This document shows positions 4,464 to 44,058 of a stretch of DNA of 46,695 bases, one piece after another. Each line of letters opens with the position of its first letter. Position 1 is the stretch's first letter. The notes beneath the pieces are model-generated. The model saw only the letters and a program-made list of their open reading frames with translations, was not told the DNA's origin and ran no database searches. Source of the DNA: a virus; the IMG/VR virus record IMGVR_UViG_3300020122_000429, positions 1-46,695 of that record. One strand, given 5' to 3'. Made by a program: the position numbers and the translations under genes.

Positions 4464-4681
4464 GCGACGATCGCGACTGGAGCGACTACGCGATCGACGA
4501 CATCGTGTGTCGGCGCGAGACGAAGGGCGGGGCGCTCGTGTGCTGCGTGAAGGGCGGGAAGCCAAGCGACGAGTTTCTGATCCCGAAGGGGCTCGTGCGC
4601 GACGATAGCGAAGTGTACGCGGCCGGCACGGAAGGGACGCTTGTCATCCCGACGTGGCTCGCCGAGGAGAAGAATTTATGA
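4460..4681 (+). CDS. hypothetical protein
   Basis: 73 residues from ATG 4460 (ATGA overlap). It has a beta-rich look (GALVCCVKGGKPSDEFLIPKG, EGTLVIPTWLAEEKN). It sits between the DNA-binding gene and the GroES gene; its last codons contain the GAGGAG ribosome-binding site of the GroES gene. Function unknown. Confidence 0.55.
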   Translation: MSDDRDWSDYAIDDIVCRRETKGGALVCCVKGGKPSDEFLIPKGLVRDDSEVYAAGTEGTLVIPTWLAEEKNL

Positions 4682-5148
4682 TCGCGAGCGGCACCGATCT
4701 CACGAAGCTGACGCAGGCGACGCTGCTCACCGAGTACCTGTCGATCGGGCGCTACCCCGAGCGCTACGGCCGCGTCGAACGCCAGCAGCTCCGGCGTGCG
4801 CTTCGGAGTGAGCTGATTCGTCGTGGGGTCGACGACGTGCCGCCGCTCGACGAGGAACCCTGTCGCCTCCGGCCCCTCGCCGATCACGTCGTCGTGCTGC
4901 CCGAGCACCAACCGGACGTCACGCCCGGCGGCATCATCCGGCCTGAGTCCGCGAAGGAGGTGCCGATGCAGGGCGAAGTCCTCGCCGTCGGGCCTGGCGT
5001 CGTCGAGCCCGGGATCGGGACGCGCGTGCTGGCCGTCAGCGTCGGCGATCAGGTGCTCTTCGGGCGCTACAGCGGGATCGAATTTACCCTCGACGAGCAA
5101 AAGCTGCTCATCATGCGCGAGGCCGACGTGCTCGGGGTGCTCACGTGA
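4678..5148 (+). CDS. GroES-type co-chaperonin with N-terminal extension
   Basis: 156 residues from ATG 4678, which has GAGGAG upstream and an ATGA overlap. Residues about 65-155 match the Cpn10/GroES fold: PLADHVVVLPE opening, a mobile-loop region with PGGII, GEVLAVGPG, VGDQVLFG and the typical end LLIMREADVLGVL. The first 63 residues are an extra helical, basic domain not present in bacterial GroES (usual length about 95). Phage co-chaperonins such as T4 gp31 replace host GroES on GroEL so that the capsid protein can fold; a similar role for this protein is inference. It lies early in the block before the packaging genes. Confidence 0.85.
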   Translation: MIASGTDLTKLTQATLLTEYLSIGRYPERYGRVERQQLRRALRSELIRRGVDDVPPLDEEPCRLRPLADHVVVLPEHQPDVTPGGIIRPESAKEVPMQGEVLAVGPGVVEPGIGTRVLAVSVGDQVLFGRYSGIEFTLDEQKLLIMREADVLGVLT

Positions 5149-6791: not shown

Positions 6792-6841
6792 CCTGGCCGA
6801 CGATCCCGCTCCCGACGGCGGCGCTCGGGGGTGAGGCGTGA
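6788..6841 (+). pseudogene. 17-codon chimeric remnant at duplication junction
   Basis: GTG 6788 opens a frame that reads TWPTIPLPT, the N-terminus of the 7053 gene, and then AALGGEA followed by stop, the C-terminus of the 5968 gene (AALGDEA). It is therefore the fused head and tail left by a tandem duplication. It keeps the GTGA overlaps on both sides, so it may still be translated and pass ribosomes to the next gene. Confidence 0.6.
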
Positions 6842-7056
6842 AATGGGTCGCCGGACTGCTCGCCCTTCTTGCGACGTCAGCGCTCGCGGATGACATGAAG
6901 CTTCGCCGGACGTGGTACATGAACGTGTACACGCGCTCCGGTCGCGGGCTCCAGGTGGACATGCACGGGAAGATCACGGGAAATCTCCGTGCCGCGAATG
7001 CGCTTCGCGTGATCGCGAAGAATCTTGAGCACGAAGACCGCCGGAAGTCGCCATGA
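6838..7056 (+). CDS. small secreted protein, cassette copy 2
   Basis: 72 residues from GTG 6838. The N-terminus (KWVAGLLALLATSALADD) is a clear Sec signal peptide with cleavage expected after ALA. The mature part is about 55 residues, basic (KLRRTWYMNVYTRSGRG). It sits in the second cassette slot. It should act outside the cytoplasm of a Gram-negative-type host; role unknown. Confidence 0.55.
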   Translation: MKWVAGLLALLATSALADDMKLRRTWYMNVYTRSGRGLQVDMHGKITGNLRAANALRVIAKNLEHEDRRKSP

Positions 7057-7489: not shown

Positions 7490-7746
7490 GCGCGAACCTC
7501 GGCCGCGACGCGCGCGGGCGCTACTATCCCTCGAAGGCCGCGCGGCTCAAGGTGCACTACCGCTGCGCGCAGTGCGGTCGCGATCTCTTCCGGTCGGAGG
7601 TGCATCACATCGGGCATATGAAGTGGCGAAAGTTTCGCGGCGAGATGATGCACCGACGTACGCCTGGCTACTCGCTCCGCGCATCGCCCTGGTGTGGGCC
7701 CGTGCAAATCGCCCCGAATCCGGCGTATCGGAAGCAACATGGGTAA
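7486..7746 (+). CDS. small CxxC/HH protein, HNH-like fragment
   Basis: 86 residues, ATGA overlap. It has CAQC at about 27-30 followed by EVHHIGHM, as in the first half of an HNH nuclease (CxxC then xxHHI). The second half lacks the usual N and the LCxxCH knuckle. HNH proteins next to the large terminase are common and can assist packaging. This one may be a degenerate HNH or an unrelated zinc protein. Confidence 0.4.
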   Translation: MSANLGRDARGRYYPSKAARLKVHYRCAQCGRDLFRSEVHHIGHMKWRKFRGEMMHRRTPGYSLRASPWCGPVQIAPNPAYRKQHG

Positions 7747-9649
7747 CGTCAGCATCGGACGCGATGAGAGCAACTGGCTCGTCATCCCGCCGACCCCGCC
7801 GGCTGAGTGGTGGCTAAAGCCGGAGCACACGGGCCTCCCGGAGTCGGAAGAGCTGACCCGCCTCGAAGCGATGCGTGGCGCGTTTGCGCGCGGTGAGGGA
7901 CCGGCGTTCTCGGACGAGCAGTACCGCCGCTACTGTCGGCTCCGCGGCATGCGCGATCTCTTCTTCCTCGGGAAGTGGGTGCTCGGCTTCGATCGCCTGC
8001 AAGGCGAGTTGCACGCCGATCTCGCGTACGCCTGGCAATGCCCCGACGGCATCGAGCTGACGCGCGGCCCCGCCGGCCTCTTTCGCTGGGCGACGATTCC
8101 CCGTGGGCACTTGAAGACGACGATCCTCACGATCTCGTACGCGATCTGGCTCCTCGTTCGCGATCACGACGAGCGCATTTTGATCTACTCGGCGAACTAC
8201 ACGCTCGCGAAGAAAATCTTCGGTTTGATCCGCGCGCTCCTCGAAGGGAAGGGCGCCGCGGGGGCGTTCTTTCTCGAGTGCTATCCCGAGCTGAAGACGA
8301 CCTCGGCACAACGCGACAAGGACAAGTGGGCCGAGAACGCGCTCACGATCCCGCGCACGACGCCCTTCACCGACTACTCGCTCGAATGCTCCGGCATCGA
8401 CGCCAAGATCAGCGGCTCGCACTTCACGACCGAGCTGGTCGACGATGCGGTCGCGAAGCTCGAAAACGCCGAGCAGATGACAAAGATCCTCGACATGTTG
8501 AACAACCTCGACCCGCTGCTCGACAGCTTCGAGACCGGCAAGCGCCGGATGGCGTGTACGCCCTGGGGTTTCTGGGACCCGGCCGCGCGCGCCGAACGGA
8601 ACGAAGCCGAGGCCCTCGTCTGTCGCCGGTCGATGTTCGAGGACGTCGACCCAACCGCGGTGTGCGGGCGCGTGCCGATCACCGATCCCGCGAAATTCAC
8701 GTATGCCCGCCTCACGTATCGCTGGAAGGCGAACATGGACCGGACGATCGCGAAGGCGAAGAAGATCGCCCAGCAGACGCCCTACTTCTTCTCCTGCCAG
8801 TTCAACTGCTACCCGAAACGCGAAGGCACCCTCGGCTTCCGCTCCGAATGGTTTCGGCGCTTTGTCCGTCGCGGCGACGTGCTCGTCGAGCTGGGCATCG
8901 ATGCGCGCGAGGTGAAGAAACTTCCGCTCGCTGCCTGTAACGTCTTCATCACTGTCGACCCGATCGGCGGCGATCGCCGTGGCACCTACGGCCCCGCCGA
9001 TCCGAACCGCGCGCCGTCGATGGATACGGATTACGTCGGCATCAGCGTGGTCGCCGTCGCCGACGACAACATGAAGTACGTGCTCGACGTCCGCCGGAAG
9101 CGTTACAACGACGATGAGTTCGTCACCGTCATCTTCGATCTCGTCGCCTACTACCATCCCCGCTCGGTGCACATCGAAGCGACCGCCGGCCAGCGCCACA
9201 TCTTCAAGGCGTTCCTCGACGCCTGGCGGCGCGGCAAGCCGATGTTCGTGCTCGGCGAGTGGAAAGGCGGCCATGCCTCGAAGTCGGAGCGGATCCGCGG
9301 TCTGATCCCGCAGATCTCCGAGGGCTTCATGCTCTTCCGCACCGAAGCGCCGCCCGCGATTCAGGAAGGGATCGACGACTGCATGCAGGAGCTGCTCGAC
9401 GGCGAGACGAGCCAGCACGACGACGCGAAGGACTCGCTCTCGGCGATCTTGCAGATCGCGTATCCGCCCGGCCAGGGCGCCGAGCAGTCGTATCAGCAGT
9501 CGCTGCACACGCTCGCGGAAGACGACGAGCTTGCCCGTCTCGATCCGACGAGCCGCTGGGCCTGGGATCTCGTGCGAAAGAAGCAGCGCGCGAACACGTC
9601 GCCGTTCTCGCTCGGCGAGGGATTCAACGCAGGCGGGGCGAACGCCTGA
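7739..9649 (+). CDS. terL: terminase large subunit
   Basis: 636 residues from ATG 7739, which overlaps the previous stop by 8 bases. N-terminal ATPase: a Walker A variant PRGHLKTT at about 121-128 and a Walker B with acidic pair in TELVDDAV at about 230. C-terminal RNase H-like nuclease: Asp in VFITVDPIGG near 400, a second in DTDYVGIS near 428 and a last in HDDAKDSLSA near 560. It would translocate DNA into the prohead through the portal and cut the concatemer. Upstream are the putative small subunit and an HNH-like protein, downstream the portal. Confidence 0.92.
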   Translation: MGNVSIGRDESNWLVIPPTPPAEWWLKPEHTGLPESEELTRLEAMRGAFARGEGPAFSDEQYRRYCRLRGMRDLFFLGKWVLGFDRLQGELHADLAYAWQCPDGIELTRGPAGLFRWATIPRGHLKTTILTISYAIWLLVRDHDERILIYSANYTLAKKIFGLIRALLEGKGAAGAFFLECYPELKTTSAQRDKDKWAENALTIPRTTPFTDYSLECSGIDAKISGSHFTTELVDDAVAKLENAEQMTKILDMLNNLDPLLDSFETGKRRMACTPWGFWDPAARAERNEAEALVCRRSMFEDVDPTAVCGRVPITDPAKFTYARLTYRWKANMDRTIAKAKKIAQQTPYFFSCQFNCYPKREGTLGFRSEWFRRFVRRGDVLVELGIDAREVKKLPLAACNVFITVDPIGGDRRGTYGPADPNRAPSMDTDYVGISVVAVADDNMKYVLDVRRKRYNDDEFVTVIFDLVAYYHPRSVHIEATAGQRHIFKAFLDAWRRGKPMFVLGEWKGGHASKSERIRGLIPQISEGFMLFRTEAPPAIQEGIDDCMQELLDGETSQHDDAKDSLSAILQIAYPPGQGAEQSYQQSLHTLAEDDELARLDPTSRWAWDLVRKKQRANTSPFSLGEGFNAGGANA

Positions 9650-9661
9650 GCCCGTGACAGC

Positions 9662-10075
9662 ATGGCAAACGCCATGCTAGACGCCGAGCCCATGTGGCTC
9701 AGCCGCCGGAGCGTGAATGCGCTCGACGATGCCGTGACGACGATCGCCGGCAACTTCGAGCGCACGCTGGCGGTGCTGCGGGAAGAAAACTCGACGTTGC
9801 GTCGCATGCTCGAAGCTGAAGGCGCTCGCGCCAATCAGCTCCTGCTCGAACTGACGAAGGCGGCGGTACTGTCGGCGGCGACTTCGGTCGCTGGACCCGC
9901 AGCAGCGCATGTGGGCTCACCGCCGCCTCGCCGGACTTCCAAAGATCCGGTCCCAGGCGTCGGCAATCTGCTCGATCCGGTGCCGTTCGGCGACAAGGCG
10001 GGCCTCTTCGACACCGAGGCCGCCGCCTCCCTGATGGCCGCCGAGGACGACGATGGCATATCTGCCGCCGCCTAG
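9662..10075 (+). CDS. hypothetical coiled-coil protein between terminase and portal
   Basis: 137 residues. An N-terminal helix with heptad-like spacing (FERTLAVLREENSTLRRMLEAE, trimmed from a longer helix at about 30-65) suggests a coiled coil, followed by a Pro-rich linker and a short acidic C-terminus. The 3' end overlaps the portal start by 23 bases. Probably a head-assembly or packaging accessory by position; no family recognised. No clear ribosome-binding site. Confidence 0.6.
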   Translation: MANAMLDAEPMWLSRRSVNALDDAVTTIAGNFERTLAVLREENSTLRRMLEAEGARANQLLLELTKAAVLSAATSVAGPAAAHVGSPPPRRTSKDPVPGVGNLLDPVPFGDKAGLFDTEAAASLMAAEDDDGISAAA

Positions 10076-12407
10076 TCCCGCGACGGCTCCGACGAGCAGC
10101 CCCGACCTGAAGGGCGTACTCGGCGTCTCGAACGATTCGAGCGAAGACGCGAAGGCAAAGCGCCGAGACGCCCGCAACGAATTCATCGGCCGCATCCGGT
10201 CGGCGCGCCACGAGATCCTGCGAAGCTGGCTCGAAAACTGTCTCTTCTACATCGGCCTGCAGTGGCTCGCCCCACTGCCGGACGGCCGTGGCTTCATGCG
10301 CGCGAACCTTCGCCGCGACGTCCCGCGCCCCGTCACGAACCGCTTCAAGACGATCCTCGACGCGATCGACGCCCCGCTCTCGCGGCTCGAGCCCGCGCTC
10401 ACGTGCGTGCCCGGTAGCGACAAGGACGACGATCGCATGACCGCCGACCTCGGCATTCGGGTACTCGACTACCTCTCGCAGCAAGTCGAGCTGGATCGCT
10501 TCAAGGGACAGCTCTCGAAGATCCTGGTCACGTGCAACAACGCCTACGGCCACCTCGGCCTCGATCCCTCCGGCGGCGGTATCGTGCGCGTCCCGCAGTG
10601 GCAGTGCGCGCAGTGTCAGGCCGTCGTCTCTGCAAGCACGGCCGCCGAGAAGCACGGCACGTGCCCCACGTGTCAAGGCACGCTCCGGCCGACGCAGACG
10701 CAGCCCGACATGGTGAACCCGGGCGCGCTCTTCCTCGAAGCGCTTACCCCCTTCGAGGTCTGGGTCGACTTCGCGATCCCGCGCATGGACGATCAGCCGA
10801 TCGTGATGATCCGTCGTTTGCGCCCGCGGAAGTGGGCCGAAGCGACGTGGCCTGAGTACGGGCAGCAGATCAAGAACCTGCCGAGCTGTTCGTCAACGAG
10901 CGACCTTGGCATGACGTTCTTGCAGTCGCTGATCCGCCTCGCCCCCGGCGGCGCGCCGACGCAAGGCGGGATCGGCTTCGGTGCTCCGATCCGCTGGCAA
11001 GAGTCGATCATCGACGACATTCTCTACATCAAGCCCTGCACCGACTATCCGAATGGGCTCTACATGCGGATGCTCGGCGACGAGCTCGAAGTCGAGGTGA
11101 TGGATCTCGGTGACGTCGCCCACGACGGTACGCTCGAGGAACCCGGCGCGCCCTTCATTCCGATCGTGCACTACGGCTACGACGATGTGCCGGGCTCGCA
11201 CGTGCACACCGGTCCCGCCGATCACCTGAAAGATCTGCAGCGCCAGCGGAACCGGCGCGAAGCCGCGATCGAGCTGTATTTCCAGCGGATGGCGAACGGC
11301 GTCTGGCTGATTCCCGAAGGCACGGACGTGCAGACGCCGACCGGCGAAGAAGGCTGGGTGATGCGCTACTCGCCGCTCGGGAGTGGCGGCGCCAAGCCCG
11401 AGCGCATGGAAGGGTCGCGCCTCCCGTCGAGCTTCGTCGAGTGGCTGCAGTTCACCGACAAGCAGATGGAAGACATCGCGGGCACGTACGATCTCTTTCG
11501 CGGCAACAAGCCGCCGAACGTGTCGAGCGGCTACGCGATGCAGATTCTGACCGAGCGCGCGCAGGCCCGCTTCGCGCACGTGTACGGCAACTACGAAGTC
11601 GCGCACGCGAAGCTCGGCACGTACATGTTCCTGCTCTTCCGGAACCACGCGCCCGACGAGATTTACTTCAAGATCAAGGGCGAGGAGTCGCGCTGGACCG
11701 TCATCGCGATTCAGCGCGCCGACCTCCGCGGCGGCATCGACTTCCGCGTCGAAGCCGGGAGCGCGCGTCCGAAGACGACGCTCGAAAAGAAGGCGAGCGT
11801 CGAGCAAGCGGTGCAGCTGCAGCTCATCGACCTGCAAGACCCCGACGTGCGGCTCCAACTCCTGCACCTCTACGGCATCCCCGAGCTGATGCCGATGGCG
11901 CAGGCCGACGACGAACAAGTCGCGCGCGAGCACGCGACGTACTTGCAGTGGGCGCGCTCGTGGACCGATCCGCTGACGGGCCAGCCGATCACGGGCTCGC
12001 CCGAGGAGATGATGTTGCCGGTCTTGGTCGACGCGCTCCTCGACGATCACCCGTTCCACCTGATGCGCCACAAGAAGTTCATGCTCTCGCAGGAGTTCTT
12101 GCAGACGCCCGACTGGTGCCGGCAGGCGTTCCGCGACGGGCACTACGTCGAGCATCTCTACGAGGAGCAGATGAACGAGATGCAGGCCGCGCAGCAGGCG
12201 GCGCCGCCGGTCGTGAACCCGCCGCCCGAAGCCGGTGGGCTGCCGTCGAAGAAGGGCCCGACGATGGCGCCCGGTGGTGGCGGCGGTCCCGCGGCCGGGC
12301 CCGCACGCGCGCAGGGACAAGCGACGGCGATGCAGCACGGCCGACCGCCCGGTCCCGGTGCTAAGGGCGGCCAGTCGATCGCCGAGGCGATGGCGCCGCC
12401 GGCTTGA
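10053..12407 (+). CDS. portal protein with inserted zinc-ribbon
   Basis: 784 residues, ATG with GAGGA upstream. Size, location directly after the terminase and pattern (LENCLFYIGLQWL, RPVTNRFKTILDAIDA, then long helices and a Gly/Pro-rich C-terminus) fit a podovirus-type portal that forms the dodecameric DNA channel. Unusual: residues about 185-213 contain CAQC and CPTC 22-25 residues apart, a complete zinc-ribbon knuckle pair within the body of the protein. The final 70 residues are low-complexity Gly/Pro/Ala. Confidence 0.85.
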   Translation: MAYLPPPSPATAPTSSPDLKGVLGVSNDSSEDAKAKRRDARNEFIGRIRSARHEILRSWLENCLFYIGLQWLAPLPDGRGFMRANLRRDVPRPVTNRFKTILDAIDAPLSRLEPALTCVPGSDKDDDRMTADLGIRVLDYLSQQVELDRFKGQLSKILVTCNNAYGHLGLDPSGGGIVRVPQWQCAQCQAVVSASTAAEKHGTCPTCQGTLRPTQTQPDMVNPGALFLEALTPFEVWVDFAIPRMDDQPIVMIRRLRPRKWAEATWPEYGQQIKNLPSCSSTSDLGMTFLQSLIRLAPGGAPTQGGIGFGAPIRWQESIIDDILYIKPCTDYPNGLYMRMLGDELEVEVMDLGDVAHDGTLEEPGAPFIPIVHYGYDDVPGSHVHTGPADHLKDLQRQRNRREAAIELYFQRMANGVWLIPEGTDVQTPTGEEGWVMRYSPLGSGGAKPERMEGSRLPSSFVEWLQFTDKQMEDIAGTYDLFRGNKPPNVSSGYAMQILTERAQARFAHVYGNYEVAHAKLGTYMFLLFRNHAPDEIYFKIKGEESRWTVIAIQRADLRGGIDFRVEAGSARPKTTLEKKASVEQAVQLQLIDLQDPDVRLQLLHLYGIPELMPMAQADDEQVAREHATYLQWARSWTDPLTGQPITGSPEEMMLPVLVDALLDDHPFHLMRHKKFMLSQEFLQTPDWCRQAFRDGHYVEHLYEEQMNEMQAAQQAAPPVVNPPPEAGGLPSKKGPTMAPGGGGGPAAGPARAQGQATAMQHGRPPGPGAKGGQSIAEAMAPPA

Positions 12408-15869: not shown

Positions 15870-17162
15870 ATGGCTCAGACGGATACCACTAGTTACAGCG
15901 CCGCCCTCAAGATCGTCTTCGGCCCGAAGCTGATCGAGGAGCTGGTGACGACGTGCCCGCTCACCGAACGGTTTCAGCAAGCCGACATGATGCAGTGGGA
16001 AGGGCGCGACACGATCGAGTACCCGCTGCACGTCGGTCGGAACCAGGGCTTCGCCTACGGGCGTGAGCGCGGGCCGATCGCCGTCGCGGGCGCCGAGGAG
16101 TTCGTCTCGTTCAAGGTGCCGCTCATGACCGGCTGGGGCCGCTTGAACATCTCCGGCAAGGTGATGAAGGTCTCGCAGTCGTCCAAGGGCTCGTGGAAGC
16201 GCGCGCTGCAGAACGCCTATGACGGTCTCCGGGCCGCGGTGCTCCGCGACAACAACCGCATCCGCTTTCACGACGGCCGCGGGGTCCTCGCGCTCGTGAA
16301 TGGCGCGGGTGGCGACACGACCACGCTCACCGTCGACAGCCCCGGCGGCGTCGCCGGCAGCGTGAACGGCGCCCGGTATCTGCAGAAGGGCATGCTGATT
16401 GGCATCTCGAACGCGACCGGCACGACGCTCACCGCCGTCCGCACGATCACCGCGATCGGCGCCGCCGGCACGACCGTCACGCTCGATCAGCCGATCTCGG
16501 CGACGCAAGCGCCCGACAACGGCTTCATCTTCCGCTTCCCCGATCCGAACGCGCTGACCCTCGCCGACTCGGCGCTCTTCAAGGAGCCGATGGGCCTCCT
16601 CGGCATGATCGACGACGGCACGTTCGTGAATCAGTATTTCAACGTCAACCGCACCGCGTACCCGGTCCTCAAGGCCAACGTCTTTGCGAGCGTCGGCGCG
16701 CTGAACCTCGACACCATGCAGCAGGGCTTCGATGTCGCAAGCCAGCTCGGCGAGACGATGCCGACCGAGCTGTGGGCGCATCACTCGACCCGGCGCGCGT
16801 ATCTCGCGCTCCTCGTCGCGAACCGGCGCTACCTCTCGACCGGCGGTGCCAACGATCACGACGGCGGCTTCAAGGGCCAGGCCGTCACGACCGACATCGA
16901 GTTTGGGGGCGTGCCCTTCAAGGTCGATCGCGACTGCCCGTACTCGACGATCTTCGGCGTCGCGTGGGACAACGCGATGCGGTACGAGAACCCGGCCGGC
17001 GAGTGGATCGAGGACGACGGCAACCTGCTCCGCATGGTGCCGGGCCAGGACGTCTTCGAGGCCGTCTGGCGGCAGTACGACAACTACGCGATCGATCGCG
17101 TGAACGGCTGCTTCCGTCTCGATGGCGTGAACACAAATATAGTCGTCGCTCACGTGCTCTAG
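15870..17162 (+). CDS. major capsid protein
   Basis: 430 residues with AGGA before the ATG. The size, order after the scaffold, and features such as an N-terminal arm, a helical spine (GSWKRALQNAYDGLRAAVL), TELWAHHSTRRAYLAL and a C-terminal strand region fit the HK97-fold capsid of P22-like or N4-like podoviruses. Residues about 135-215 are Thr/Gly/Val-rich strands (GGDTTTLTVDS, TVTLDQPIS) and may be an inserted surface domain. It is the likely client of the phage GroES. Confidence 0.8.
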   Translation: MAQTDTTSYSAALKIVFGPKLIEELVTTCPLTERFQQADMMQWEGRDTIEYPLHVGRNQGFAYGRERGPIAVAGAEEFVSFKVPLMTGWGRLNISGKVMKVSQSSKGSWKRALQNAYDGLRAAVLRDNNRIRFHDGRGVLALVNGAGGDTTTLTVDSPGGVAGSVNGARYLQKGMLIGISNATGTTLTAVRTITAIGAAGTTVTLDQPISATQAPDNGFIFRFPDPNALTLADSALFKEPMGLLGMIDDGTFVNQYFNVNRTAYPVLKANVFASVGALNLDTMQQGFDVASQLGETMPTELWAHHSTRRAYLALLVANRRYLSTGGANDHDGGFKGQAVTTDIEFGGVPFKVDRDCPYSTIFGVAWDNAMRYENPAGEWIEDDGNLLRMVPGQDVFEAVWRQYDNYAIDRVNGCFRLDGVNTNIVVAHVL

Positions 17163-18062: not shown

Positions 18063-18065
18063 GTG

Positions 18066-18518
18066 ATGCGTCGGCTGCTCCTCGCGTGCGTGGTCGTGGT
18101 GGCCTGGCTGCTTGCCAGCGGGCAGGCCGAGGCGCAGACGGCGACCGCCACCGCGACGCCCACCCCGACGCGCACCGCGACACCGACGCCCACGGCCACA
18201 CCCACCGCGACGCCCACTGTCACCGCGACCCGTACTCCGATGCCCGACATCGCCTGCGGGACCGGCCCTGGTGCTGGCGGTGCGCGCACCTCGGGCGTCT
18301 GCGGCGGCTTGTGCGGCCTCGGCACGGACGGCGTCGCGCAAGTCTGTCGCTGGGATCACACCGCCGCGAACACCGGCTGTCATTGCGTCGACACGACCGT
18401 CGACTGCGACTTGGGCGGGATCGGGCAAGAAATGTGTAGCCAGGGCGAGTGCGATCGGCCGCCGACGATGCGCGGAGGGAATTGCACGCGCGATGGCAAT
18501 ATCTGTCGCTGTAAGTAG
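18066..18518 (+). CDS. secreted Thr-Pro-linker, Cys-rich protein
   Basis: 150 residues from ATG 18066 (a GTG at 18063 is adjacent). A Sec signal (LLLACVVVVAWLLASGQAEA) is followed at about 25-58 by a run of Thr-Pro/Ala-Thr repeats, then a compact domain with 12 cysteines (patterns CGGLC, CHC, CSQGEC, CRC). Twelve Cys after a signal peptide imply six disulphides outside the cytoplasm. It resembles cell-surface proteins of some Deltaproteobacteria-like genomes rather than usual virion proteins, yet lies in the capsid operon. Confidence 0.65.
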   Translation: MRRLLLACVVVVAWLLASGQAEAQTATATATPTPTRTATPTPTATPTATPTVTATRTPMPDIACGTGPGAGGARTSGVCGGLCGLGTDGVAQVCRWDHTAANTGCHCVDTTVDCDLGGIGQEMCSQGECDRPPTMRGGNCTRDGNICRCK

Positions 18519-27489: not shown

Positions 27490-27767
27490 TGGCGGCGGGC
27501 GGCACGATCGGCGTCCCGACCGGCGCCGGCATCACGCGCCAGACGCCGAGCTACGGCCTCGGCCTCCCACCGGACCTCCCGATGGGCGATCAGCGCGCGA
27601 TGGCCCGGAAGCTGATGCAGCAGCGCGGCGCGGGCTTCAGTCCGGGCGGCATGAGCGATCAGAACACGGGCGACATGGCGGCCCTGCTGCAGTACCTCGG
27701 GAATCAGAGCGGCGGCCGGCAGGCGCGTCCGCGCGCGCGTGGCTTCGCTGGCGTGCAGCGGCGGTAA
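27486..27767 (+). CDS. hypothetical Gly/Gln-rich protein
   Basis: 93 residues from GTG (GTGA overlap; ATG follows at once). Low-complexity Gly/Pro/Gln/Arg composition ([18 protein letters not shown]) with one helix, basic C-terminus. Probably virion-associated because of coupling to the previous gene. Confidence 0.5.
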
Positions 27768-27771
27768 CGCC

Positions 27772-30700
27772 GTGCGCGGCGTCCTCGCCTGCGTCGTCGC
27801 GCTCCTGCTCACCGCCGCGTCCGCGTCCGCGAACACGAGCGACGGCCCTGGCATCTTCACCGCCTCGGCCGGCACCTCGCTCGCTGCGACCTTCTTCCAG
27901 GGCCGGAATTCCGCGTCGAGCACGCAGACGGGTGCCGGCGTCTTCTGGACCAACAACCAGGGGCCGCTTTCGGGGGTCTGCTCGGTCGCGGTCGAGCTTG
28001 GCGCGGCGCCCGGTGGCGCCACGTCGTGGGACGTGCACCTCCTCTACGACGAGACGGCGCTCGCGGCGTCGGAGTCGTGCCAGGCGACGACCGCGAACCT
28101 GAAGGACTCGGGCACGATCTGCACGATCACGGGTGCCGCGAAAACGTGCACCGGCACTGTGACGCTCAGCAGCGTGAACGCCGGCACCGGCATCGCGGTC
28201 GGCGGCTGTCTCCAGATCGAGTACGTGCGCAACGGCGCCACGACGGCGACCAGCACGGAATTTGTGTCACTCGCGTGCAAAGACGCGAACGGCGACGGGA
28301 TCGAGAACTACTCGTCGAATTCGACGACGAGCGTCAATGCGACCGCGTTCCTCGGGCCGCTCGTCTCGACCGCGGCCTCGAACAACACCTTTTACGTCGC
28401 GCCGATCGCCGTGAATCAGTGCGCCGGGAACGTGTCGCTCACGACCGCCCCCGGCGCCGGCAACTCCTGGGCCCTCGATGCGGTCGTGTCGACGGGGGCG
28501 CTCGGCGCAACCCAGCAGTGCACCGATCTCACGTACACGACGACGGCGCTCAGCGCGACGATCGCCAACACCGACAAGAGCGTCAAGTTCGCGTCGACGT
28601 CGACCTTCACGGTCCCGCAGTTCGGCTGCTTTCAAACCCGCCTTCGCCGCGTGAGCGCCGCCGCAACCGGCACGGGCGGCGAGGTCTTCGGTCTCGACTG
28701 CACGCCGGACACGAGCGGCACTGTCGCGACCGGCGCGGGCTCGTGGTTCGGCGGCGCGGCGAGCCAGAGCTTCGGCACCGTACGGATGGGCGTCACGGCG
28801 GGGGCCTTCAATACCGGAACCGGCACGCGCATCGTCGCGCCTTACGATCTCGGCACGTGCTCGGGCATCGTCTCGATGAACAGCGCGCCGAGCGCCGGCA
28901 CCTGGGACATCGCGCTCGAGAAAGGCGATCAGGCCGGCGCCGCCTGCACAGGGTCCGGCAGCTACACGGCGACGAGCGTGCTCGCGCAGATCAACACGAC
29001 GCAGCACACCGCCACCTTCACGGGCGCAGCCCTCAACGCGACGAAGGGCACCTGCGTCGCGCTCATCGCAACGCGGAATGGCCACTCCGACGCGACGGGC
29101 CTCCTCACCTGGGCCGTCGACTGCACGACACTCAGCGCGACCGCGACCCCAACGCCAACGGCCACAGCCACCCCAACGCCGACCGCCACCGCGACGGCGA
29201 CCGCGACACCGACGCTCACGACGACGGCGACACCGACGCGTACTGCGACCCCGACCATCACCGCCACACCGACCGCTACCCCCACCCCGACGGCCACGGC
29301 CACGGCCACCGCCACAGCGAGTCCGACCCCGACACCCACGCCGACCGCGACACGGACCCCGACGCCGACCGTCACGCCGACCCCGACGGCCACCCGGACG
29401 GCGACGCCGACGGTCACGGTCACGCAGACCCCGACCCCCGGCCCGACGGGCTGCAGCGGCGGCGCGATTCGGCCACAGGACATGCACGATCCCGACTCGT
29501 GTCCGTACGGCTTCCCGACCGACCCGGGCCACGTCATCGTCGACTCGTTCTTGTGGAAGGGCTCGCACTGGCGCTGGGTCGATCTCTTCGACTACTTCGT
29601 CCCGAAGCCAACGAGTACCGCGGCGGTCGTGACGCCGACGCCGACGGCTTCGCGCAGCCCGACGCCGAGCCCGACGGCGACGCTTGTGCCCGAGAATGCC
29701 GTCGTGTTCGTGCAGGGCGGCGCCGCCAAGGGGACCGACGGGAGCTTTCTCTACGATCCCGCGTTCAACAAGCTCTCGATCGCCTCCGTCGCCCCGGACA
29801 ATCCCGATGCCGAGCTCACGATCGGGGATGTCCCGAATCAGACGTTTTTCGATCTCCTCGTCGGCGCGCCCGGGACGGCGCCCGAGGTCAATATGGAGGG
29901 ACATAACGCGAGCGATCTGTTCTGGACGTGGGTGCAGTGCTCGGACACGCTGACCGACACGAATCACGTGGAGTTCTATCGCCAGGCCGCCACGTGCGTC
30001 GGCGATCTCGCGAGTGATCAAAACGGGGCGAGCATCTACATCTGGGACGCGGAAGCCGGCGGCAGTTCTGGCGATGCCCGGACACACGTAGCGATGCGGG
30101 ATCAAGTCTACGTTGCGGCGGCGCCGTCGCCCTCGTACGCACCCGTGAATCGTGACTTCGCCGTCGGGGGCAGCACCTCGACGCTGGCGGTCGTGCTGCG
30201 CTTGCTCGGGCTGACGCACGATGTCGCGCTGCCGCAAAAACCGAACTGCAGTGTGCTCGGCACGACAGCCGGGGGCATCGTCGAATGCAAACCGACCGCG
30301 ACGGCCACCCCGACGCCGACCAGCACGGCGACCGCGAGTCCCACGCCGACGAAGACCGCGACCCCGACCGTCACCGTCACGCCCACGCCCACGGTCACAG
30401 CGACCCCGACCGCCACGGCGAGCCCCACTCCGACGGCACTCATGTGCAGCGACATCCTCGGCTGTATTCCCACGCCGACCGCCACCCCGACGTCCACGGC
30501 GACGCGTACGCCCACGCCGACCGCGACTGCCACGCCGAGCCCCACGCTCTCGGCGACATCCACCGCGACCGTGAGCCAGAGTCCGACGGCCACGGCGACT
30601 CCGACGCCGAGTGCTAGCCCGACGCCAACGATCGTCGGCACGCTGATCCCCGTGCACCGTTCAACCTCGGCGCCCGGCTCGGGCCCGTCGTTTTTCGATC

Positions 30701-32904
30701 GCGAGTACGCGATCAGCAAGATCGACACAAAGCCCCTCCCGAACGGTACGCCCGCGCTCGAGATCCGTCCTGCGGCCCAGCCGACCGTCGGCGCATCCCT
30801 CTTCGCCGTGTCGCGCTCGGCGGCCAACGGCAACTCGATTTTGAACGTCTGCGACAAAGTGGGCGGCAGCGACACGTTCGCGAGCGGCATCGCCGTACGG
30901 ATCGATACGGGAACGGACGACGATACGACCCTGCATTGCGATCAGATCAGTGGGGATGCGCCGGTCGTCTTCGAGATGGGCACGACAACGAGTCCGAAGG
31001 TGTCGGGGGCGGCCGGCTCGGGTGGCAAGCTTATGCAGATGGCATCGCAATTTGCGGCCGGGGCCGACGATCAGGAAATGGACAACTTTCAATCATACCT
31101 GACGATCGACCCGACGAACACGCATAAGTTTTACAGTGTCGGGATGGGCTCGAACGTCACGTTGCAGGGGACGGGCGGCGACACGCCCGCGCTACCGATC
31201 GCCGCGACGGCGGTCAGCTCTTACCTCCAGCTTGGCGAAACCGGCAACGGACTGATCCGCACCGCAGGCGGCTACAATGCACAGCTGCAACTCAACAGCG
31301 ACGGCGGCACGACGGCGGCCGGCACGTACTATGGCTTCCTGCTCCGCGAGGGTGGTCTCGGCGGCGGGTGCACTGTCCCACTCGGGACGTGTTTCGACCT
31401 GACGGACGAAGGGGCGCTGTATATCCCCGCGCTCACCTACGCGCCGACGACGAATCGCTACTCCATCAAGAGCCTCGGCACGACGACGCACATGGAACAC
31501 GCGGGCGCGATCTACATCGCTCCGAACGGCACGCCGACCGCAAGCGCCTCGCCGTCGCCAACCGCGAGCCCGACGAACACGAGCGCCGCCACGCCGACGG
31601 TCACGCTGACGCCAACGCCGACGGCCACCACGTCGTCGACGGGAACCGCGGTCGCGACCCCCGGCCTCGTCGTCGACTATCCGGTGTTCCTTACGAAGCC
31701 CGTCGGGATTGGCGTGGCGGCGCCGCAGGCGAAGCTGCACGTCGCCGAGGAAGTCACGAACGTCGCCACGGCGGCCGACACCATTCGCAACATTTTCTCC
31801 GATTGGGTGCTCCGCCCGCTCTGGTCGTCGCTCGGCAACTACGTCGGGGTCGACTCGCAAGTGACGACGGCAAGCGACATCGGGTTCTCGCAGATCATCG
31901 GCGCACGGGCCATCGTCACGCATCAAGGACAGGGGCTCGTCGGAAACTTGGCTGGGAGTCAGACGCAAGCGTTCAATGGGGGAGCGAGCGCAGCGAACAC
32001 GGGGACGTTCACGGCAATGCGCGGCGCACTGGTTCAGGCAATCAATAACTCTATGCGCGGCGCATCGGGGACACTTGTCGGCGGCTCGTTCTCGGGTGCG
32101 CACCGCTCGACGTCAACGCTCACGAACCTCTATGCGGCGCACGTCGCGATCGACATTCGCGGCGGCACCGTCACGAACGCGTATGGCCTTCGCGTGCGCG
32201 GTTTCAACGACACCGGCACGGACTTGCTCCAGGGCGGGACGATCAGCTCCGTCGCGGACATGGTGGCGATCGGCGATTGGAACAGCGGGCCGACGTATCC
32301 GAGCAACCCGCGTCAGCTCTTCATCGAAGCGTGCACGGCGACGAACTGCACCGGAATCGCCAACGAGTCGACATCACGGTTCGCGCAGCGGGTGGACGTT
32401 GGCCCGACCTCGACCGCGACGCCGACCCCGACTGCGAGTCCGACCGGCACCGCCGCGACGCCGACCGGCACGAGCGTCATTGCCACCGCCACGCCTACCC
32501 CGACGGCGACCGCGACCGTTTCGCCGCAGCCTGCCGCCACGCCGCTCGTCGAGCTGCACGGCGGGAACTTCATGCTCGACAACGGACATGAGGTGTCGCG
32601 GCAGACCGTGCCCCCGAACGTGACCAGCTGTGGCACCGGCCCGACGCAGCCGGTCCGCGGCGACGCGTCTGATACGGTCGGTAAGTTCACGGTCGGCTCG
32701 GCCGCGACCGCCTGCACACTCAACTTCGTCTACACCTGGACGAACGCGCCGAAGTGCCACGGGGAAGTGCAGACGGGCACGGTCGCCAGCGTATTCGCGA
32801 TCGGCACGACCGAGACGACGACGGGCGTCACCTTCACGACGAGTACGCTCGCCTCCTCGATCAGCGGGCTCACAATTCAGTACTGGTGCAAGGGAAACGA
32901 GTGA
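27772..32904 (+). CDS. giant secreted Thr-Pro-repeat fibre-like protein
   Basis: 1710 residues from GTG 27772. A signal peptide ([17 protein letters not shown]) is followed by three related beta domains of about 130-150 residues, each with paired Cys. Six Thr-Pro/Ala-Thr tracts (about 457-560, 613-640, 841-891, 900-956, 1253-1296, 1543-1590) separate further beta domains. [14 protein letters not shown] near 1310 is a motif usual in phage tail-fibre stalks, but no C-terminal S74 chaperone is seen. The C-terminal domain ends [15 protein letters not shown]. Either a receptor-binding fibre with an odd export signal or a phage-encoded surface protein. Confidence 0.7.
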
Positions 32905-40032: not shown

Positions 40033-40186
40033 CACGAGCCTCCGTCGTAAGAAACCTGCCGCGTTGTCTACTTTGTACGGACCACGCCTCGGGTCGTATT
40101 TGTAGGCCGGGCTGTGGCAAGAGCGCCACGCTCGCGACCATCATCGCGACGCACGCCGCGAGCGTGAGGCTAGACTTCCGTGTCAT
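40025..40186 (-). CDS. 53-residue membrane or secreted peptide
   Basis: ATG 40186 overlaps the end of the RusA gene by 17 bases in another frame. The N-terminus MTRKSSLTLAACVAMMVASVA is a signal-like or single membrane helix, followed by a basic tail. Its 3' end holds the GGAGG site of the next gene. Function unknown. Confidence 0.45.
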   Translation of the reverse strand: MTRKSSLTLAACVAMMVASVALLPQPGLQIRPEAWSVQSRQRGRFLTTEARDG

Positions 40187-40583
40187 AGAGCGTGATCGTG
40201 CATCCGGCGTCTTCCCCTTCCCGACACCAGCGTTTCGTCGCCATCAGGTCGATGATCTGGCGGTCGTCGCCGAGCAGCTGTCCGTGCACGAGCGCATCAC
40301 CCACTGCGCGGACCATCTTGTCGAGGTCGAGCGAGGGATACGGCCGTGTCGGTTTCTTCGGCGTGCGACAGCGGAAGGACGCGAGCAGGTAGACGGGTCG
40401 CATGATGACGGCGGGCAGGCGTTGCCGTGCGACCATCGCCTCCGCGGCGACCGCCGTACGCCACGGCCCGAGCTTCTTCGACTGCTCGATCATGCGCGGA
40501 TGGCGCGCGCCCTGCGGTTGCACGATGCGCTTCGAGCCCTGCGAGGCGGGATCACCCGCGACGAAGAATTTCGCGAGGATCAT
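40170..40583 (-). CDS. rusA: RusA-family Holliday junction resolvase
   Basis: 137 residues. The opening FFVAGDPASQGSKR, the acidic core PSLDLDKMVRAVGDAL with LGDDRQIIDL, and the C-terminal strand follow RusA: conserved Asp residues in DLDK and DD coordinate magnesium for symmetrical cleavage of four-way junctions. RusA is about 120 residues, so length fits. In the phage it would process branched DNA before packaging. It starts in an ATGA overlap with the upstream gene. Confidence 0.85.
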   Translation of the reverse strand: MILAKFFVAGDPASQGSKRIVQPQGARHPRMIEQSKKLGPWRTAVAAEAMVARQRLPAVIMRPVYLLASFRCRTPKKPTRPYPSLDLDKMVRAVGDALVHGQLLGDDRQIIDLMATKRWCREGEDAGCTITLYDTEV

Positions 40584-40804
40584 TGATTAAAAATCGCCGT
40601 GTTCCACAGCAAGGCGCGTTCAACGAGACCCTTTACGTCCTCGAAAGAATGCAGAACCAACGACGGGCCCCCTGTAGTAAAGATCTGCGTAATACCAGGA
40701 TTCACGCTTTGGAGGCGATAAATGGTATCAAGTTTGATCCATTCAACTTCGCCGCGTATTCCGACGAATGGAATACCATCAATAATGTTCGTGCTTATTC
40801 TCAT
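40580..40804 (-). CDS. hypothetical protein with low GC
   Basis: 74 residues from ATG 40804 (ATGA overlap). Strands and a helix (NIIDGIPFVGIRGEVEWIKL, LVLHSFEDVKGLVERALL). The gene uses noticeably more A/T-ending codons than its neighbours, which suggests a different origin. Function unknown. Confidence 0.55.
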   Translation of the reverse strand: MRISTNIIDGIPFVGIRGEVEWIKLDTIYRLQSVNPGITQIFTTGGPSLVLHSFEDVKGLVERALLWNTAIFNQ

Positions 40805-42294
40805 GGTGTCGGTCCCGGACAGGGGCCGTGATGGCCGAGACACTCCGGCGGTCGGGGAGGGAAGCGCAGATCGTCGACCTCGACCGCGAGATACTTCGGT
40901 GTCGTCTCGATATGCCGTTCGAGGATCGTCACGTGCCAGGGCCACGCATCATACGCCGCCCCGACCGCGAGCACCTGATCGCTGAGCGCCGTGCCGCCGA
41001 AGGGGGCCAGCAGGAGCGACTGGTACGGCGAGAGCGGCGCCCCGTCCATGTGCGGCGGCATCAAGATCGGTGGCGGGAGCCAATGCGGGATGGCTCCGGC
41101 GATCATCGCGTCGTTCATCATCCAGTCGTTCCCTTCGACGAAGCGGGCTTCGAGGCTCAGCCACCCGCCCGTGCCGGTGAGCAGCGGGAGCAGCAACGCC
41201 TTCACGTCGGGCTCGCCGTACACGTTCGCGGACGTCGGATCGACCGCCGCGTCGTCGAGCGCCGAGATCCGCCAGATGCCTGTGAACGGATTGCCGGAGC
41301 CCTCGGCGGGGACGGTTGCGATCTGTTGTGGCTGTCCCGCCGACACGAGCCACCCGAGCTGCCGCTTATGGAGCGCGTTGATGTCGCCGACGCCCTGCCC
41401 CATGAAATCGAACCACTCGCCGTATTCCTTGTTCGTGCAGAGCGCCGCCGGATCGTCGGGGATCGCCGGCACGGCATGACAGTCGAGGCTGTTGGCGTGC
41501 ACGAGGCCGAGCGTGTGGCCCGTCTCGTGCGCCAGCATCGGCCACTTCTCGTTGTTGTACTCGAGCCCGAGCATCACGAGCCCGTCCGGCGTCTGCAGCC
41601 CAACGGGCCCGACGAACGCGAGGCCGCCCGGCGCGTCGGAGATGCCATGATCGATGCCGTCCATGCAGTAGCGCGGGGTGCCGTCGAGGTTCACGGGCCG
41701 CGGGATCACGATGTCGATCGTCGTGACCGTGCGGAAGTCGACTTGCCCCGTCGCAAGCCGCACGGCCTCGCGCGTTAGCTGATCGAGATCGCACGCGATG
41801 TCGTCGGCGCGGAACGGGCTGAACTGAATCGGCAGCGTGATCGTCCGATGCGTCGCGTGTCCGTAGCTTGCGTTCGCCCACACTTGCGCTTCCTTCGGTC
41901 CGAGCGCCGCGACTTCCGCCCACGGCCGCTCCCAGGCGACGTCAGCGAAGCTGATCGGGATCACCAGCTCGACGATGATGGCCGGCGCGGGCCGCGGCGG
42001 CGGCTTCGCGAGGATCGTCACGCCCGTGAGATCAGGATTCGGCACGAACGTCCGCGACTGATCGGGGCGCCCGCGGAGCTTCACGAGTGCTCCCGGCACG
42101 AAGCGCGGATCAGGCGCAACGACCATCGTGTGCGTCTTCCCCCGCGCCATCCGCCACTCGCCAACGGTCGCGACGACTTGGCCGCTCGTCGGGTCGATCG
42201 TGTCGCGGGCGAGATAGCGCAGGGTGCCGGTGCGGGTGGAAGCGAAGGCGGGTGTGGCAGCGAGGAGATAACAGACAACGAGGAGGGATCTCAT
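40801..42294 (-). CDS. secreted gametolysin-like (M11-type) metallopeptidase
   Basis: 497 residues from ATG 42294 with AAAGGAG upstream. Signal peptide MRSLLVVCYLLAATPAFAS. Residues 256-266 are HETGHTLGLVH, the HExxHxxGxxH zinc site of metzincins, and DFMGQG near 298 is the Met-turn. The stretch HANSLDC, EYGEWFDFMG and NALHKRQLGWL follows the spacing of peptidase M11 (gametolysin) proteins. A zinc protease exported by a phage could trim surface proteins or act in lysis or exclusion; target unknown. It is placed oddly, within the recombination operon, with a small secreted partner upstream. Confidence 0.8.
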   Translation of the reverse strand: MRSLLVVCYLLAATPAFASTRTGTLRYLARDTIDPTSGQVVATVGEWRMARGKTHTMVVAPDPRFVPGALVKLRGRPDQSRTFVPNPDLTGVTILAKPPPRPAPAIIVELVIPISFADVAWERPWAEVAALGPKEAQVWANASYGHATHRTITLPIQFSPFRADDIACDLDQLTREAVRLATGQVDFRTVTTIDIVIPRPVNLDGTPRYCMDGIDHGISDAPGGLAFVGPVGLQTPDGLVMLGLEYNNEKWPMLAHETGHTLGLVHANSLDCHAVPAIPDDPAALCTNKEYGEWFDFMGQGVGDINALHKRQLGWLVSAGQPQQIATVPAEGSGNPFTGIWRISALDDAAVDPTSANVYGEPDVKALLLPLLTGTGGWLSLEARFVEGNDWMMNDAMIAGAIPHWLPPPILMPPHMDGAPLSPYQSLLLAPFGGTALSDQVLAVGAAYDAWPWHVTILERHIETTPKYLAVEVDDLRFPPRPPECLGHHGPCPGPTP

Positions 42295-42653
42295 GGGGCC
42301 GGACTCCTTTCGTGGCTGCGGACGGTCGTGCGATCGAACGTGAAGGTGCCGCCGGTCGGGGTGCCGGCGAGCGGACAGAGCACACGCCAGGTACGAAAGT
42401 CCCAGAGCGTGACGCTCACGCTGAACGGTCGATGCTCGGTCACGACGCCGCGCTCCTCTTCGAGCGTGTCGACGAGGAGCTGACAGACGAGCGGGGCATG
42501 ATGGCCGTCGCGCACCGTGAGGAGATGGCTCGTCAGCGTGAAGGCGGTCGGATCGGTGACGGTAAGACTGGGAAGATCGAGCAATGCCGTAACGATGGTC
42601 TCGGCGTGAGCGGGCGTGACGATAAGCACGAGCAGCAGCGGAAGATATTTCAC
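42291..42653 (-). CDS. small secreted protein
   Basis: 120 residues from GTG 42653 (GTGA overlap with the nuclease gene). Signal peptide KYLPLLLVLIVTPAHAE, then a beta-rich domain (TAFTLTSHLLTVRDGH, FSVSVTLWDFRTWRV) with two Cys that could form a disulphide. Being coupled to the metallopeptidase gene, it may be its partner, chaperone or inhibitor; this is inference. Confidence 0.6.
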   Translation of the reverse strand: MKYLPLLLVLIVTPAHAETIVTALLDLPSLTVTDPTAFTLTSHLLTVRDGHHAPLVCQLLVDTLEEERGVVTEHRPFSVSVTLWDFRTWRVLCPLAGTPTGGTFTFDRTTVRSHERSPAP

Positions 42654-43537
42654 GAGGCGGACTCTCCTTTGGCAGCGATGATGGCTTGGCCCTGCGTGCA
42701 GAATGGAAGCGCGGAGCAATAGTGCCCTTCACAGCGGGGCGACTCGCCGGGGCGCACACGCACCTCAAGGCGAGGGTCGAGATCCGCGTGAGCATCGGCG
42801 AGCACGCGAGAGGGATACAGTCGGAGTGCGTTCTTATTGCCGATCTTCGCGACCGCAAAGACCGTCGGCTTTTCCCAGCGCTCCTCGGGCGTGCATTGCG
42901 GCAGCACGCGACGCGCTTGTTGATGCAGGGCGACGCGTGCTTCGAGAAACGCCTGGCACTGTGCCGTGGGCCAGAGCGGCAACGGAATCACCGAGACCTC
43001 ATGTTCGGGATAGCTCTCGGGGTAATTGCGCCGTTCGTTCTTGCGAAAGTCCCGCCCAAACGCGACGACTTCAACCTCGTGGATGTTCGGATGGCCGTTC
43101 TGCCGACCGAAATGGGCGAGCAGATTGACTTGCTGCTCCCACTCGACTTTGCCCGTGGTCTTCGGGTCGAGCGCGTCCTTGATCGACCAGACCGACGTGT
43201 CCTTCCAGTCGGTCAGCTTCTTCTTCGTGAGCGTCACGAGATCGAGCTTCCCCGACACACGCCAGCCGAGGCAGTCGACTTCCCAGCGCACCTCGGCAAT
43301 CTCGTTGACACCGGCCGCGCGTTCGAGGATCGCGTGAATCCCTTGCGAGCGGAGCGCCCAGATGCGATCGGCGACGTCTTCGGTCAACTCGCCCTCGTGC
43401 TGGCGCATGAGCGCGACTTGGCGCGGGGGGGCGATCAGACGCGTGATGGAGATATCGGCGGTGCCGGGATCATACGGATCGTTGCTGCAGGCAGCGACCA
43501 GGGCTTCGGGTAAGTTAAGACGATTCGTTATGCGCAT
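42650..43537 (-). CDS. PD-(D/E)XK nuclease, Cas4-like with Cys cluster
   Basis: 295 residues from ATG 43537 (TTG 43543 would overlap the previous stop). The early HAILERA helix, GKLDLV and DWKDTS form the catalytic core of the PD-(D/E)XK superfamily. At the C-terminus CEGHYCSALPFC, with another Cys farther upstream, matches the iron-sulphur staple of Cas4/AddB-type nucleases. Next to the SSB-like gene and upstream of RusA, it would be the recombination exonuclease producing 3' ends. Confidence 0.75.
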   Translation of the reverse strand: MRITNRLNLPEALVAACSNDPYDPGTADISITRLIAPPRQVALMRQHEGELTEDVADRIWALRSQGIHAILERAAGVNEIAEVRWEVDCLGWRVSGKLDLVTLTKKKLTDWKDTSVWSIKDALDPKTTGKVEWEQQVNLLAHFGRQNGHPNIHEVEVVAFGRDFRKNERRNYPESYPEHEVSVIPLPLWPTAQCQAFLEARVALHQQARRVLPQCTPEERWEKPTVFAVAKIGNKNALRLYPSRVLADAHADLDPRLEVRVRPGESPRCEGHYCSALPFCTQGQAIIAAKGESAS

Positions 43538-43539
43538 GG

Positions 43540-44058
43540 TCAAAACGGTATATTGTCGTCATCGTTTGGTGGTGGTGCTTCGTCGCGCCCGTGCACGTCT
43601 GGTGCGCGCTCCTGTTGGCGGACGTAGCCGGGTGTCACCGGCATCGGCGACATGCCTTTGGGTAACCGCATAATCGACGAGATGTTCGCGTACGTGTTGC
43701 CCTTGCTCACGTTATGCACAATCTGCACGTAGGCGTTTGCCCCGATCAAATCGTCCAGCTCAAAGCCCGCCAGCTCAGCGTCGGTGAACGCCCGTCCGCG
43801 CCAGGCTTCGAGATCGTGTAGCAGCTTCGCCTTCTCGTGGAGCGAGAGCGTGTAGCGCTGCGAGATCACGAAGGGCTTCCCGGTCTCGGGATCGTGCTCG
43901 CTCGAATGCCAGACGATCCGCACCATGGGCTTGAGCTTCGCTTCCTCGCCCCAGGCCTGCTCGATCATGCCGAGATCGACGACATCGACGCAGACGACTT
44001 GCTGCGGGCCTTCGGGGGCGGGGTTGAAGTTTGACGACTGACGACGAGCCACCACCAT
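43540..44058 (-). CDS. single-stranded DNA-binding-like protein
   Basis: 172 residues with GAAAGGA before the ATG. Strand-rich body (QVVCVDVVDLG, PMVRIVWHSS, NAYVQIVHNVSKG) and a disordered C-terminal tail ending NDDDNIPF, the acidic Phe-ended tip typical of bacterial SSB, which recruits partners. Placement beside the nuclease fits a phage SSB in recombination and replication. Confidence 0.7.
   Translation of the reverse strand: MVVARRQSSNFNPAPEGPQQVVCVDVVDLGMIEQAWGEEAKLKPMVRIVWHSSEHDPETGKPFVISQRYTLSLHEKAKLLHDLEAWRGRAFTDAELAGFELDDLIGANAYVQIVHNVSKGNTYANISSIMRLPKGMSPMPVTPGYVRQQERAPDVHGRDEAPPPNDDDNIPF

Follow-up and report, generated by a model that had tools for sequence, protein, structure and literature searches.

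A predicted exported M11-like zinc metalloprotease encoded in the recombination operon of a tailed phage

Algal gametolysin strips Chlamydomonas cells of their protein wall (PMC6704257). The DNA analysed here (the window) comprises an entire IMG/VR virus record, 46,695 bases long, and it encodes a predicted protease that shares with the gametolysin-type family (Pfam PF05548) and its bacterial relatives the motifs HExxHxxGxxH, EYGxxxDxMG and HKxxLGWL and about 300 aligned residues, but is divergent, compact and phage-encoded, its core being 40–47% identical and the whole alignment 20–27%. With the immune inhibitor A2 zymogen (PDB 4yu5, 4yu6) the modelled protein shares the fold over the catalytic and following beta region, although the two are only about 15% identical. 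The third point of comparison is a set of M11 proteins from other phages, described below; these are likewise phage-encoded and compact, with an intact zinc site and predicted exported or membrane-anchored N-termini, but they belong to other phages, occupy other genomic positions and pass the PF05548 threshold.

Phage enzymes that act on peptidoglycan and polysaccharides are well known. The initial annotation of the window knew of no established phage role for the M11 family, and our search of the open-licence literature agrees, as it returned neither a phage role for gametolysin or peptidase M11 nor one for phage metalloproteases in exclusion or lysis; metalloproteases go unmentioned in a recent survey of viral lytic proteins (PMC12596118). 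The literature and phage records searched contain no description of a predicted exported metzincin-type protease in several different phages.

The phage and the operon carrying the protease gene

The window is a tailed phage, with the following head and packaging genes.

7694-9649: terminase large subunit
10053-12407: portal
15870-17162: major head protein

Counterparts of the window's structural genes occur, in unchanged order, in another viral contig, G019, and no relative of the window terminase was found in viral contigs. PADLOC gave no match. The left-end gene cluster encodes a GroES-like co-chaperonin (Cpn10, Pfam E 2e-22) at 4654-5148 on the plus strand. An 11-kb fragment (L020, IMGVR_UViG_3300037071_003958) is a close relative of the window phage, with 87% identity in the capsid and 71% in the terminase.

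The protease gene lies at the right end, in a minus-strand stretch whose order is SSB-like, exonuclease, 120-aa gene, protease, 74-aa gene and RusA.

43540..44058, minus strand: phrog_862 protein whose acidic tail (DDDNIPF) is SSB-like; the operon stretch begins with this gene
42650..43543, minus strand: phage exonuclease (phrog_2139), same operon, upstream of the 120-aa gene
42291..42653, minus strand: 120-aa gene, predicted exported protein, GTG start with AAAGGAG ahead
40801..42294, minus strand: predicted exported M11-like zinc metalloprotease, 497 aa, ATG start with AAAGGAG ahead
40580..40804, minus strand: 74-aa protein with no assigned function, ATGA overlap with the protease stop
40170..40583, minus strand: RusA-like Holliday junction resolvase, ATGA overlap with the 74-aa gene

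Four successive 4-nt stop/start overlaps join these genes, GTGA at the exonuclease/120-aa junction and ATGA at each of the 120-aa/protease, protease/74-aa and 74-aa/RusA junctions. Because of these consecutive overlaps, the protease and 120-aa genes belong to the operon running from the exonuclease to RusA, as had been proposed at the outset. Recombination operons of phages are usually early, and we infer early expression of the protease from its neighbour genes. As a general rule, the early timing first proposed is not supported, since the four other phages have the gene within or beside late or structural genes.

The position of the gene also bears on whether it could be cargo of a temperate phage that serves the lysogen. 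The gene is accessory, its product is predicted to be exported and many bacteria themselves encode M11-like enzymes, but no integrase or phage repressor was found among the window genes scanned, and the gene lies inside a recombination operon; we regard such lysogenic conversion as improbable.

The initial annotation had named a host fragment joined to the phage contig in a chimeric assembly as another possibility. Most M11-like genes are bacterial, and the other phages of the window lineage lack the protease. Against this, the 4-nt overlaps tie the cassette to phage genes on both sides, its tetranucleotide make-up equals the phage median, its codon usage is within the range of phage genes, no bacterial relative is closer than about 47% over 80 residues, and independent phage contigs carry M11 genes. 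Given the operon overlaps and a composition that is the phage's own, an assembly chimera was rejected as very unlikely.

The protease is missing from the closest sequenced phage relatives, G019 and MW202554.1, the latter a complete circular genome, which is why we regard it as an accessory gene dispensable for the lineage; relatives of the exonuclease have no such cassette in the DNA examined. The best bacterial relatives in about 500 genomes do not exceed the value given above, so that no recent donor is known. Searches by peptide patterns revealed no close relative of the protease in viral or genome contigs, and plasmids gave no relative of it. Two genomes (L175, L176) gave apparent matches, which were discarded as antisense to a sulfatase-like gene.

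The 120-aa gene begins at a GTG that overlaps the exonuclease stop, and its own stop overlaps the protease start. Its product has the predicted signal peptide (M/V)KYLPLLLVLIVTPAHA, and two cysteines lie in the mature part, which is about 100 aa long. Pfam, PHROG and PADLOC yielded no match to it, no relative turned up in phage records or viral contigs, and its single-sequence model (pLDDT 50) was too poor for use. It had been put forward as a partner of the protease. This proposal gained no support, given that no matching gene was shown beside the other phage proteases, and that, since no relative of the 120-aa gene was found, adjacency and coupling are what the designation rests on. A related proposal is that the small protein is a periplasmic inhibitor until lysis, after which the freed protease would hit neighbouring cells or grazers. 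Both proteins are predicted to be exported, they are translationally coupled with the small one made first, and the latter has the size and two cysteines noted above; however, the small protein lacks a sequence relative and a usable model, and no equivalent gene accompanies the other phage proteases as far as shown. We therefore hold a toxin/inhibitor pair to be unlikely.

Sequence and predicted fold of the protease

The protease can be divided into the following predicted regions.

aa 1-18: signal peptide
aa 20-97: N-terminal beta region
about aa 100-320: metzincin catalytic domain
41497..41529, minus strand, aa 256-266: predicted zinc-binding site HETGHTLGLVH (HExxHxxGxxH), invariant in alignments A1 and A2
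41398..41427, minus strand, aa 290-299: EYGEWFDFMG block with the Met-turn M298
to about aa 475: post-catalytic beta region, followed by a proline-rich tail

To predict signal peptides we applied a simple rule of our own, under which 8 of 52 likely genes and 7 of 251 decoy frames are positive. It flagged the protease (N-terminus MRSLLVVCYLLAATPAFA|ST; Sec type) as well as the 120-aa protein, in agreement with the initial annotation, which had assigned signal peptides to both.

The zinc site, the Met-turn and the M11-like spacing, all claimed in that annotation, were confirmed: no match to the motif with M11 spacing is expected by chance (100 shuffles of the window), and the profile described below gives an E value of 5e-27. 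HExxHxxGxxH with a downstream Met-turn places the protein in the metzincin clan, and EYGxxxDxMG and HKxxLGWL (here HKRQLGWL, downstream of the Met-turn) at the family spacing, together with homology along the domain, make it M11-like. H256, E257, G259, H260, G263, H266, Y291, G292, D296, M298 and G299 are invariant in a 48-row alignment with 47 relatives, and judged by these residues the window protease is catalytically competent.

In Pfam, PF05548 (Peptidase_M11) reached 15.2 bits, below the gathering cut-off of 21, and for this reason we use the name M11-like, without formal Pfam M11 membership. PF13583 (Reprolysin_4) reached 23.2 bits against a cut-off of 22, over aa 220-273 only (54 residues); this match is driven by the zinc-site motif and is far weaker than that of the M11-like profile (89 bits). 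As Pfam was equivocal alone, a dedicated profile was built: 120 prokaryotic proteins with the M11 motif were gathered from species genomes, and 99 of them were used. It matched the window protease over aa 67-396 with the score and E value already given, the motif part of that score being partly circular because the members were chosen by motif. When the core was removed, the N-terminal part still scored 9 bits, compared with at most 0 in 200 shuffles, and the C-terminal part alone gave no score against this profile. All three bacterial members tested pass PF05548. Kinship to M11-like peptidases thus extends beyond the motif, and on sequence grounds the window protease is a divergent M11-like (gametolysin-type) relative. 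Of the original reading as a phage-encoded gametolysin-type protease, the homology and all catalytic residues stand, and the family name is qualified by the score under the Pfam cut-off.

The AlphaFold model of the protease has a mean pLDDT of 68.5, with the catalytic part mostly at 75–90. Its best match among solved folds is the InhA2 zymogen (Z 18.4 over 320 residues), followed by families near Z 10, among them ulilysin (Z 10.0) and ADAM17 (Z 9.3), which indicates a predicted metzincin fold. Although immune inhibitor A (M6) is the best fold match, the protease had no Pfam match to it at E 1 or better.

M11 proteases in other phages

A strict M11 DNA motif had no match in viral contigs, which reflects a limit of the pattern, because scanning 2.9 million viral contigs with a profile as guide then revealed four more phage contigs, G020, G021, G022 and G023 (L147-L150: IMGVR 3300005438_000008, 3300049893_001639, 3300028381_000007 and 3300009177_000034). 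A second scan with the phage proteases as queries gave no further contigs among the matches listed, and in INPHARED (50,697 GenBank phage records; queries, the window protease and two bacterial members) no M11 domain was found. Terminase, portal or capsid genes are present on all four contigs. All four proteases score above the PF05548 cut-off and have an N-terminal signal peptide or hydrophobic segment, and each keeps the zinc site intact, so that the loss of catalytic residues in relatives, raised initially as grounds for doubt, was not seen.

The protease gene lies between terminase and portal in G021, where its neighbours are two further exported proteins that look fibronectin-like, and after the tail genes in G020, G022 and G023; in G022 an endolysin is encoded a few kb upstream on the same strand. 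Near the G022 protease, a small lipoprotein and an exported proline-rich protein (L160:15618-15956 and L160:17019-17516) form part of a cluster of exported proteins. The G022 phrog_862 SSB-like protein (L160:7235-7768) is 48% identical to that of the window (43540-44058), closer than those of the exonuclease-bearing relatives.

The phage proteases are compact (about 420–560 aa) compared with a median of 794 aa for complete bacterial M11-like proteins, 10 of 84 of which are 560 aa or shorter. A phylogeny of M11-like peptidases that includes phage contigs, suggested in the initial annotation, grouped three phage proteases (support 99/94) and gave the window protease a very long branch, at 3 substitutions per column; a single origin of all phage proteases was neither shown nor rejected (AU p 0.23 for four and 0.11 for five).

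Since four other phage contigs carry such a gene too, some phages appear to send a protease out of the infected cell. It is conceivable, though we think it less likely than not, that exported M11-like proteases are a recurrent strategy of unrelated environmental phages, in which a compact gametolysin-type enzyme, taken or shared, would target envelope or matrix proteins beyond the infected cell, here with a dedicated small exported partner.

Possible roles of an exported protease

An exported, active protease is the simplest reading and a probable one; its target would then lie outside the cytoplasm. The best explanation at present, offered tentatively, is that the product of this accessory phage gene is a divergent M11-like metzincin, catalytically intact and Sec-exported, that acts outside the cytoplasm and most likely aids progeny release; we infer its expression, export, activity, substrate and benefit. 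The protease would be translated from the recombination operon, cross the inner membrane by its signal peptide, bind zinc via H256, H260 and H266 with E257 as the base, and cut host-envelope or surrounding proteins during infection. Protein layers or matrix around the dying cell would thereby be loosened, which may help progeny to exit and spread. Release or dispersal is favoured by the location of the gene within or behind late genes in four of the five phages, although it fits less well in the window phage, where the gene lies with recombination genes and not in a lysis cassette, than in the others.

This placement among recombination genes implies earlier expression and so favours exclusion or envelope remodelling. 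By trimming receptors on the outer membrane or cell surface, an early exported protease could prevent a second phage from adsorbing, and the recombination-operon position (usually early), the predicted export and the accessory status of the gene in its lineage are all consistent with such superinfection exclusion. On the other hand, the gene is near late genes in four other phages, and the literature searched contains no paper describing such a role. We rank release by envelope loosening first, and removal of surface proteins against superinfection, itself a possible but less probable role, comes only slightly behind.

A secreted protease might also free amino acids from external protein during infection. 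The bacterial relatives are widespread large proteins, and soil phages have been reported with degradative auxiliary genes (PMC9485262). However, a short lytic cycle leaves little time for profit, and the window genes that were scanned include no other degradative gene, so that auxiliary nutrition appears rather unlikely. If active, the protease would equip phages to attack protein components of the envelope or matrix, and it would allow a direct test of whether phages drive extracellular proteolysis.

Predicted signal peptides are also found elsewhere in the window. A 1,721-aa protein (27739-32904, plus strand) and a 151-aa protein (18063-18518, plus strand) of the structural module start with one, and so do the G019 relatives of the former (L023:9272-13012 and L023:6843-9275), one of which has proline-threonine tracts. 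Exported giant proteins inside a tail module are unexpected. Because other large tail-module proteins carry a signal peptide too, its presence here may not mean simple secretion, and other members of this phage group's protein set, besides the protease and the 120-aa protein, may be exported. Two more small proteins (1073-1528 and 6838-7056, both plus strand) have signal-peptide-like N-termini, and the first of these has a fibronectin-like look and resembles the exported neighbours of the protease in L148.
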